Origin: Actinomycetota bacterium
Lineage (GTDB): Bacteria; Actinomycetota; Actinomycetes; Nanopelagicales; Nanopelagicaceae
Direction: 5' to 3'
Assembly (NCBI GenBank): GCA_947450545.1
Contig: CANFVU010000001.1
Coordinates: forward strand, 1-64,000
DNA: 64,000 nucleotides
Below, piece by piece: positions 303-12,003 of this stretch. Below the pieces are notes generated by a model. It made no database searches. It saw only the letters and a list, made by a program, of their open reading frames with translations, and was not told the origin of the DNA. Position 1 is the first letter of the stretch; every line of letters starts with the position of its first letter. The position numbers and the translations under genes are program-made.

Positions 303-358
303 ACCACGGGACCACGGGATAACGGGATAACGGGATAACGGGATAACGGGATAAGGAT
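303..358. repeat. 8-bp tandem repeat at the 3' end of smpB
   Basis: Two ACCACGGG units are followed by four ATAACGGG units and one decayed unit (ATAAGGAT). The last unit runs into the smpB stop codon. The rest of the smpB-ssrA gap (124-302) shows nothing I can name apart from a short CCTCGAGAGG palindrome. Copy number is likely to vary by slippage (inference). Confidence 0.85.
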
Positions 359-837
359 TAGGAATCTTTGCCGGTATTGCGGCGCGAGTAATTGCGCGCG
401 ATATCTCGATTGGCTTGCTTCTCAAGAAGAGTTTGACGCTTGTCATGCGCCTTCTTTCCTTTAGCAAGAGCAATCTCAACTTTTGCTCGTCCATCTACAA
501 AATACAACGACAACGGAACAAGTGTGAGTCCACCTTGTTTGATAATTGAGTGAAGCTTGTCGATTTCGCGACGATGCATCAAGAGCTTTCGCTTACGTCG
601 AGGAGTGTGGTTGGTCCAACTTCCCTCGTTGTATTCAGGAATGTGAATTCCTTCCAGCCACGCTTCACCATCATCGATCGTTGCAAAACCATCAATGAGA
701 GAAGCCCGACCAGCACGAAGTGATTTCACCTCTGTGCCAGAAAGAACAAGCCCACATTCATAAACATCTTCAATGAAATAGTCATGACGAGCAGCCTTAT
801 TCTGCGCAATCATTTTCTTGCCCGTTTCTTTCACCAT
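358..837 (-). CDS. smpB: SsrA-binding protein SmpB
   Basis: Small basic RNA-binding protein that carries tmRNA into the A site of stalled ribosomes (trans-translation). The 159-aa length is normal for the family. The OB-fold core contains the signature stretch [14 protein letters not shown] near residues 33-46, and the C-terminal tail is basic ([10 protein letters not shown], then RRNTGKDS), the part that mimics an anticodon stem in the decoding centre. The start is supported by a strong GGAGGTG Shine-Dalgarno sequence five bases before ATG. It sits directly upstream of ssrA on the same strand. A small inverted repeat (ATTCCC/GGGAAT) lies just upstream of the ribosome binding site; its role is unknown. 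Confidence 0.97.
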
Positions 838-961
838 CTCGTCACCTCCATTCCCAATAAAAGGGAATTACTCCCCCATATATAGACACATTCTCCCGCA
901 ATTTGTTGCCCCTACCAACCAGATTAACGAATTGAGCGTAAACAGAGGTTGGATGCGGCAG

Positions 962-1256
962 GTGCAGCGGCTAGAGCAGAGAGACGTGTAATCGCGATGC
1001 GAAGCGGTAGGCACAACCGCAAGCAATTGCGATTATTAAGGCGAACTTCTCGCCGCGCGGCCCTCGGCGCGAGACGCGCACGTCAGTGCAGCGGCTAGAG
1101 CAGAGAGACGTGTAATCGCAATGTGAAGCGGTAGGCACAACCGCAAGCAATTGCGATTATTAAGGCGAACTTCTCGCCGCGCGGCCCTCCGCGCGAGACG
1201 CGCACGTCAGTGCAGCGGCTAGAGCAGAGAGACGTGTAATCGCAATGTGAAGCGGT
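962..1256. repeat. 124-bp tandem repeat array (2.4 copies)
   Basis: The gene-free stretch between smpB and ftsX (838-1273) is filled mainly by direct repeats of period 124: copies at 962-1085, 1086-1209 and a partial third at 1210-1256. Copies differ at only a few positions. Each full unit can fold: TAATCGCAA pairs with TTGCGATTA around an inner GCGGT/ACCGC hairpin, followed by GGCGA/TCGCC and GCGCGG/CCGCGC hairpins. No open frame spans the array and no unique spacers separate the copies, so it is not a CRISPR array. The part from 838 to 961 holds the smpB leader and otherwise nothing I recognise. Confidence 0.9.
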
Positions 1257-1273
1257 GTCTTACGAGCTAAGCG

Positions 1274-2176
1274 TCAGACCTTGAGATATTTGCGAAGTGT
1301 GAGCAGCGATGCGATTGTGGAGATCACGAGTCCGGTGAGCAAGAGTTCGCTTGATGCAACCCAGACATCTCCCCATGTGAAGAATCGCGTGAAGCTCAAG
1401 AGTGGCGCAACCTTGGATGAGATCAACAACTTAAAGAGTGACAACAACCCCGTTGAAAAGAGCCAGCCAACCAACGCCGAGAAGACACCTTCAAGAAGGA
1501 ATGGCAATTGAATCGAGAAAGATGTTGCACCAACGAGTTTCATAACGCCCGTTTCGCGGCGGCGGTTAAATGCAGCGATGCGCAGGGTGTTTGAAATCAA
1601 GAGCATTGCAGTCAAAATTGATGCAACGCCGATAGCAAGCGCGCCATCGCGAAGAACCCCGAGGAGCTTGAAGAACTTATCGAGGATTGCGCGTTGATCT
1701 TGAACGGTATCTACACCTGGACGACCAGAGAATGCAGATTGAATCACGTTGAATTTTGTTGGATCTTTCAATTTCACGCGGAAAGATTCTGGAAGTTGAT
1801 CTGGCGTTACATTTTGAGCGATTGCAGAGTTCTTAAAGCGCTCTTGGAAATGTGTATATGCCTGAGCTTGTGACTCGTAATAAACAGTTTGAACAACAGG
1901 AAGAGCTTTCAAATCATCTTGAATTGCAAGGCGTTGTGCAGCGTTAATTGGACCACCTGCACATGAAGGAGATTCGGAGAGAGATCCGCAGAGGAAAACG
2001 GAAACTTCGATTTTGTCATACCAATAATCTTTCATCACGCGCACTTGTGAGTTAGCAAGTAAGCCGATGCCAAGAAGAGTCAGCGAGATTGCAACGGTGA
2101 TCATCACCGCAAAAGTCATGGTGAGGTTACGGCGAATGCCAATCTTTACTTCACTGGCTACGAATGCTGCGCGCAT
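1274..2176 (-). CDS. ftsX: Cell division protein FtsX
   Basis: Membrane partner of the ATPase FtsE; the pair couples septal ring assembly to peptidoglycan hydrolase activation at the division site. The 300-aa protein has the FtsX layout: a cytoplasmic N terminus, a first membrane helix near residues 19-42, an extracellular domain to about residue 165, then three hydrophobic segments at about 172-197, 219-245 and 265-290. The extracellular domain holds a pair of cysteines (LCGS...SCAG). The gene starts 15 bp after ftsE in the same direction, so the two are almost certainly co-transcribed. prfB-ftsE-ftsX-smpB is the standard actinobacterial order. Confidence 0.96.
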   Translation of the reverse strand: MRAAFVASEVKIGIRRNLTMTFAVMITVAISLTLLGIGLLANSQVRVMKDYWYDKIEVSVFLCGSLSESPSCAGGPINAAQRLAIQDDLKALPVVQTVYYESQAQAYTHFQERFKNSAIAQNVTPDQLPESFRVKLKDPTKFNVIQSAFSGRPGVDTVQDQRAILDKFFKLLGVLRDGALAIGVASILTAMLLISNTLRIAAFNRRRETGVMKLVGATSFSIQLPFLLEGVFSALVGWLFSTGLLSLFKLLISSKVAPLLSFTRFFTWGDVWVASSELLLTGLVISTIASLLTLRKYLKV

Positions 2177-4191: not shown

Positions 4192-4839
4192 TCACTGAAG
4201 CCTATTTGTCGCTGCAATCTCGGCACTTATATCCACTGGACTTTGTGAGCCAATAATAGGGAGAACGAGCAATTGCTTGATTCGTGAAGTCAGCGTCACA
4301 GAGACTCTCCACCCATCACAATTCCATGCGCTTATCCATATAGGTTGATCGCGAAGTTGTGCGCGCAATATTGATTGAGAAAATTGAGAATAAGCAGTGT
4401 TGCAATCAATAGGTAGCGACGATTGTTGAGATTGATTCGTCATGCCATACATTTGACCAAAATATGCCGGTTGGTTGTAGTTCGAACCGCTGTACGCGCT
4501 ACTTGACCCATTGAAATTAGAACCAATGGAACCATTGGAACCATTGGAACCATTGGAACCATTGGAACCATTGGAACCATTGGAACCATTGGAACCATTG
4601 GAACCATTGGATCCATTGGAACCATTGGAGTAATACGTTGCAGCATCAAGGTTTTGCACAGCTTTCGAAAGTAGCGCTTCACCCGTCTGAATGAGTTCGC
4701 GCTTTGCCAGAAATCCCGATGAAGTATTCATGATGACAAACGATGAGAGAACAAGCAGAAAGAAGAGTGAGGTCGACAAAATTGAGAGAGATCCTCGCTC
4801 GTCAACAATTTTCTCTCGCATCCTCATGTGTTGCGCCAT
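4192..4839 (-). CDS. TadE-like pilus protein with NGS repeats
   Basis: Last gene of the Tad operon. The N terminus has the TadE-like pattern: charged DERGS then a long hydrophobic helix (residues about 18-40), matching the small TadE-like proteins of actinobacterial Tad loci. It is 215 aa long and unusual in carrying about eleven Asn-Gly-Ser repeats (near residues 70-105), followed by a Ser/Asn/Tyr-rich stretch and a C-terminal part with two Cys in CNTAYS and WNCDGW. It probably sits in the membrane with its C-terminal part outside as a minor pilin or assembly factor. The ATG overlaps the end of the preceding gene by 16 bp. The repeat region is built from identical 9-bp DNA units. Confidence 0.72.
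   Translation of the reverse strand: MAQHMRMREKIVDERGSLSILSTSLFFLLVLSSFVIMNTSSGFLAKRELIQTGEALLSKAVQNLDAATYYSNGSNGSNGSNGSNGSNGSNGSNGSNGSNGSNGSIGSNFNGSSSAYSGSNYNQPAYFGQMYGMTNQSQQSSLPIDCNTAYSQFSQSILRAQLRDQPIWISAWNCDGWRVSVTLTSRIKQLLVLPIIGSQSPVDISAEIAATNRLQ
4528..4629. repeat. 9-bp minisatellite encoding Asn-Gly-Ser repeats
   Basis: About 11 near-identical copies of GGAACCATT (plus-strand sense), with a single-base variant GGATCCATT near the right end. Because the unit is nine bases, gain or loss of copies keeps the TadE-like gene in frame. The MVPMVP-rich ORF in the track over this area is just another frame of the repeat. Confidence 0.93.
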
Positions 4840-11160: not shown

Positions 11161-11201
11161 TTCTGAACCTTAAGTTCTGAACCTTTAGTTCTGACCTTAG
11201 G
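11161..11201. repeat. 14-bp tandem repeat, three copies
   Basis: TTCTGAACCTTAAG, TTCTGAACCTTTAG and a shortened TTCTGACCTTAGG lie end to end across the stop codon of the Lys-rich gene. Confidence 0.8.
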
Positions 11202-11847
11202 CACGCAAACGTAAACGCATACGAGGCTTAGCAACCGAACGAGTTACCTTTCGCGCAACCTTCTTTGCAGTTGCAGCGCCCTTCTTAACGGATGCTTTGG
11301 TGCTTTTGACTTTAGCGGCTGTCGCACTTTTGACAGCTGCTTTCTTAGCGGCCACCTTTTTTACAGTTGCTGCTTTCTTTGTCGCGACTTTCTTTGCAAC
11401 ACCTGTTTTCTTAGCGGATGCTTTCTTCACAACTCTCGACTGAGTTGTACCAGCAGTTTTTGCCACCTTCGCAAGTGCTGTCTTTGTAACCGCACCTTTC
11501 GTTCTCGCATTAACGCGCGTCGCACGATTTCCAGAGCGCGTGGTACGGGTTTTCTTGGAAGCGGTTTTCTTAACTGCACTTTTCTTGCTCGCGTTCTTTA
11601 CCGCCTTCACTGCGCTTTTATTGGCAGATGCACTCGATGCATCAACAGGAGGAGTGACCATGGCTGTTAATGGAGCAGTAGCAACTGTTGCTAAGTCCAT
11701 TGGAGGCGTTGCATCAGCTGCGAGCGCTCCATCGATTGATGCGCTTCCTAGAGCGAGCGCAACAACTGTCAATGCGACAGATGTGCGACGCATCAAAATG
11801 GATGGTGCTGATGGAGATCTATCTGTCATGGGTTTGGAGATATTCAT
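11197..11847 (-). CDS. Exported Lys/Ala-rich basic protein
   Basis: 216-aa protein with a signal peptide (RR, hydrophobic ALTVVALALG, cleavage likely after GALA near residue 43) and a C-terminal region made largely of K, A, V and T in histone-H1-like runs such as VKKVAAKKAAVK. The tail ends RMRLRLRA. Low-complexity basic tails of this kind bind nucleic acids or polyanions; with a signal peptide the target is probably at the cell surface (teichoic-type polymer, extracellular DNA) rather than the nucleoid. ATG at 11847 is preferred to the track start because it begins the signal peptide and has AGAG upstream. I do not recognise a characterised family. Confidence 0.75.
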   Translation of the reverse strand: MNISKPMTDRSPSAPSILMRRTSVALTVVALALGSASIDGALAADATPPMDLATVATAPLTAMVTPPVDASSASANKSAVKAVKNASKKSAVKKTASKKTRTTRSGNRATRVNARTKGAVTKTALAKVAKTAGTTQSRVVKKASAKKTGVAKKVATKKAATVKKVAAKKAAVKSATAAKVKSTKASVKKGAATAKKVARKVTRSVAKPRMRLRLRA

Positions 11848-12003
11848 TTCTCTACTTTCTCTGTAGCTACAGTGATTGGGGTGGTTTTGTTGGGATGAAC
11901 GGTGTAGCCACATGGCGCGAATACTCGCTACTTCTGACATTATTCACTCGACGAGAAGGCCAAACTGTGTAATTCACACGCATTGGTGGCAGACTTACGC
12001 CCC

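Follow-up and report, generated by a model that had tools for sequence, protein, structure and literature searches.

The window, the whole 64,000-nucleotide stretch analysed here, comes from the draft of a 1.31-Mb freshwater actinobacterial MAG in 41 contigs (~88% complete). Database matches to its smpB are uncultured freshwater actinobacteria, Nanopelagicaceae and Planktophila among them, and the organism is probably of Nanopelagicales type. Rfam and Pfam matches and open reading frames give a gene order, in rising coordinates, of tmRNA, smpB, ftsX, ftsE and prfB. The spacer between smpB and ftsX covers 838-1273 (436 bp), and 295 bp of it are filled by the strongest tandem array of the window by a wide margin, in which TRF finds a 124-bp unit repeated 2.4 times at 962-1256 (98% matches, score 569). 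Table 1 lists the features of the region.

Table 1. Features at and around the smpB-ftsX spacer, in window coordinates.
Feature	Position	Strand	Basis or remark
tmRNA (ssrA), 5' part, cut by contig end	1..123	-	RNA family search (Rfam)
Second array, ACGGGATA x 6.1, between smpB and ssrA	306..354		TRF
smpB	358..837	-	PF01668, 2.5e-60
Conserved block, between array and smpB	884..913	-	TATAGACACATTCTCYCGCAAWWTGTTGC on +; kept in four closest relatives
Tandem copy 1 (124 bp)	962..1085		Stems TAATCGCGAT/ATTGCGATTA, GCGGT/ACCGC, GGCGA/TCGCC
Tandem copy 2 (124 bp)	1086..1209		Stems of copy 1, all paired, plus GCGCGG/CCGCGC
Partial copy 3 (47 bp)	1210..1256		Equals first 47 nt of copy 2
ftsX	1274..2176	-	PF18075, PF02687
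Third strong array, 9-bp x 12.7, in-frame NGS repeats	4516..4629	-	TRF, ORF, Pfam neighbours

A preliminary description of this DNA had reported two full copies and one partial copy of a 124-bp unit between smpB and ftsX, GC-rich relative to the surroundings. The copies, their period and their placement are confirmed, with the correction that the span it gave, 838-1273, is that of the whole spacer. The array has a GC content of 59.7%, compared with 47.8% for the window and 46.8% for 838-961. Three substitutions (unit positions 35, 39 and 105) separate copies 1 and 2; over its 47 nt, copy 3 shows no difference from copy 2. The 884-913 block is presumably the smpB promoter, although a sigma-70 consensus scan did not call it.

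The wider neighbourhood includes Tad-pilus-type genes, with T2SSE and T2SSF matches in Pfam, and putative polysaccharide genes at 12-20 kb, read from ORF translations alone. The third strong array encodes a run of NGS tripeptides in a predicted membrane-anchored protein beside the Tad-pilus-type genes, and the collagen-repeat match of this protein falls slightly under the cut-off. A 9-bp x 13.8 array lies ~10 kb from smpB in another genome of the genus (G013). Positions 11197-11940 encode a Lys/Ala-rich protein with a signal-like start and a histone-H1-like composition, for which Pfam gave no match.

Folding and uniqueness of the 124-bp unit

Inspection of the inverted repeats bears out the earlier remark that the TAATCGC/GCGATTA stem is partly kept despite point changes: it is paired at 10 of 10 positions in copy 2 and at 9 of 10 in copy 1, where the mismatch may form a G-U wobble. 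The GCGCGG/CCGCGC stem is intact in copy 2, and the change at position 105 breaks its copy 1 version. On the + strand, copy 2 folds at z -3.3 and beats 300 of 300 dinucleotide shuffles, with the minus strand nearly as good (z -2.8); the corresponding values for copy 1 are -2.0 and -0.8. None of 60 random 124-nt segments of the window reached z -3.2 or below. Hairpins as a common trait of such arrays are ruled out, as 23 units of other arrays (period at least 30) fold ordinarily on average, with a mean best-strand z of -0.57 versus -0.33 for random segments. The stems are thus peculiar to the 124-bp unit, where they may have helped slippage along.

The preliminary description had proposed a BLASTN search of the unit against its genome and relatives. 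That search returned one locus only in the source genome and, across 296 genomes of the order (31 further species of the genus among them), no match. Plasmids and phages hold no relative of the unit; phage matches at E 0.3 and 4 were dismissed as chance, and no viral contig matched two exact patterns of the unit. Rfam gave no covariance-model match for the array. A covariance model run on 24 further members of the genus plus 16 less related genomes returned the array's own two copies and one chance-level match (E 0.36); having been built on two near-identical copies, this model could miss distant relatives. The source sequence of the unit was not found by these searches, and such arrays are unreported for the order among open-licence PMC papers.

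Unrelated spacer arrays in sister species and a regional excess of repeats

The smpB loci of 28 genomes of the genus, our own included, were compared. In the closest relatives (smpB 89-95% identical), a 30-bp block ~50 bp upstream of smpB is kept and the sequence beyond it diverges; the spacers of the nearest relatives measure 138-250 nt and are unrelated in sequence. The nearest sampled relative, G004 (smpB 95% identical), carries an unrelated spacer repeat of 41 bp x 3.1 whose unit includes the final codons of ftsX, and the 16 bp x 5.5 repeat of G028 has a piece of the ftsX 3' end as its unit. Other spacers hold repeats of 26 bp x 4.0 (G008), 84 bp x 3.1 (G005), 88 bp x 1.9 (G011) and 52 bp x 2.6 (G029), with still other units in G010, G024, G031 and G006. 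A repeat with a TRF score of at least 40 lies within 450 nt upstream of smpB in 11 of the 28 genomes of the genus, compared with 3 of 56 loci from other genera of the order. By-eye reading suggests that many species of the genus have, upstream of smpB, a ctpA-type (S41) peptidase-like sequence rather than ftsX.

The excess of repeats extends beyond the spacer. Across the source genome and the genus, repeats occur at 4.2 per 10 kb around smpB versus 0.5-0.8 in other stretches. For strong repeats, defined as TRF score at least 100, a gradient was drawn from seven long contigs (our own and six others) with contig-end repeats excluded; these contigs belong to related species, several have smpB at one end, and the densities are those of sampled stretches. 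Moving outward from smpB, the successive densities per 10 kb are 1.95 (up to 10 kb), 1.12, 0.25, 0.40, 0.00 and 0.19; the density past 60 kb is about 0.1, and other contigs, 203 kb in all, hold 0 strong repeats. When positions were shifted circularly within contigs, the p values for strong repeats were 0.0004, 0.0002 and 0.003 at 10, 20 and 40 kb, cut-offs that were picked once the binned counts had been seen. Among sister genera, no peak is seen in genomes G032, G319, G320 and G321, and that of G034 is weak.

We judge the chances to be evenly balanced that the ~40 kb around smpB-ssrA are a genus-specific birthplace of tandem repeats, coding and noncoding, that differ between species, with a local feature that makes or tolerates duplications. 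Some candidates for this feature are events of integration and excision at the ssrA gene, the neighbouring pilus and polysaccharide genes, and relaxed selection. The noncoding fraction is 13% near smpB versus 4% elsewhere, and because of this difference the data do not separate the tolerance of repeats from their production.

An origin or terminus as the cause is disfavoured, with GC skew of the same sign on either side of smpB in the contig that best spans it (G017:C5) and a distance of ~195-315 kb between smpB and dnaA in complete relatives from other genera. A search with the dif-core pattern was uninformative. On the long contigs tested, no phage integrase (PF00589) was found in the vicinity of smpB; the closest match lies 65 kb off, in G017:C5. 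In the complete freshwater actinobacterial chromosomes of IMCC25003 (CP015603.1) and IMCC19121 (CP015605.1), smpB lies 282 bases from the start, at position 283; both records apparently start in or near ssrA, not at dnaA.

Contigs of the genus frequently stop no more than a few hundred bases from smpB-ssrA, as do the window's own contig, G025:C97, G013:C58, G003:C7, G023:C3 and G007:C46. Several contigs end within perfect tandem repeats (e.g., 7 bp x 15.6, 15 bp x 9.5 and 14 bp x 8.9), and the assemblies therefore probably under-report arrays.

Origin and meaning of the array

The array is quite likely a lineage-specific minisatellite of the VNTR type that has no conserved function of its own and is a product of the regional hotspot. 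Local sequence between the ftsX end and the presumed smpB promoter block would be duplicated through replication slippage or unequal or illegitimate recombination, and the array, presumably neutral, would be retained because the spacer tolerates changes in length. It would be one product of a genus-specific repeat-forming hotspot reaching ~20 kb to either side of smpB-ssrA. In favour of a minisatellite, the presumed promoter block is conserved and the array side is not. Also in its favour are the single locus of the unit, the different arrays that sister species carry in this spacer, the regional excess of repeats and the ordinary folding of other arrays. Against it, the fold of copy 2 exceeds what is normal for a randomly duplicated spacer; the agreement between copies 2 and 3 also counts against it, as the array need not be decaying, and so does the failure to find a source sequence for the unit.

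Good folding is what a small structured RNA or an element of a 3' UTR, in array form and acting through its fold, would lead one to expect, and the unit is GC-rich with nested stems in both full copies. We nevertheless regard such an RNA, which the preliminary description had suggested, as quite unlikely. Rfam gave no match, and neither BLAST nor the covariance model yielded a relative in the genus; the better fold is on the + strand, whereas both flanking genes are transcribed from the minus strand; the scan called nothing promoter-like close to the array; and with just three substitutions, covariation or stem conservation could not show itself. The strong hairpins and the position between two transcription units would also suit a protein-binding array, or one that terminates or insulates transcription between ftsEX and smpB. 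This too seems decidedly improbable, given that the scan gave no terminator-like site inside the array and that the nearest relatives have just their short, unrelated spacers at this place. The chromosome-organising site proposed earlier gained no positive evidence.

An extragenic, GC-rich, palindromic unit resembles REP/BIME elements, and a REP/BIME- or MITE-like mobile element copied in tandem at the spacer is a reading that we hold to be very unlikely. REP/BIME elements have many dispersed copies, whereas the unit occupies a single locus; the Y1_Tnp match expected of a Y1 (RAYT) transposase is absent from the source genome, itself ~88% complete; and phages and plasmids lack relatives. From the earlier phrase "recently amplified REP-like", the recent amplification holds, with near-identical copies in one genome, and the likeness to REP does not. 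Least probable by our estimate is an artefact of short-read MAG assembly. The genome is a draft whose window contig starts inside ssrA, and other genus contigs terminate inside repeats, but three positions distinguish the copies, ten other assemblies have arrays in the same spacer upstream of smpB, and short reads are likelier to collapse copies than to invent them.

The minisatellite reading places the array beside known bacterial VNTR loci, with which it shares head-to-tail, near-identical copies in a spacer and a partial last copy. Its unit of 124 bp and 98% identity fall in the class of ~10-100+ bp units of high identity, and the unit is lineage-specific, being unique while those of sister species differ. 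It departs from that class in folding unusually well, and it is known from one assembly of the species. In lake Planctomycetes, intergenic tandem repeats have been tied to structural variants, with slippage proposed (Okazaki et al. 2022, PMC9426551). Both cases concern lake bacteria, intergenic repeats and proposed slippage; in contrast, the Planctomycetes are another phylum with large genomes, and here the genome is small and the repeats cluster at one chromosomal place.

The array alone is ordinary in kind, and more interest attaches to the regional hotspot. In the stretches sampled, the genomes of this genus, small and tightly packed as they are, make and keep tandem repeats in a single chromosomal region and scarcely elsewhere. 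This clustering offers a natural system for studying how local rates of duplication are set in bacteria, and it may explain the frequent breaks of MAG contigs beside ssrA in the genus.
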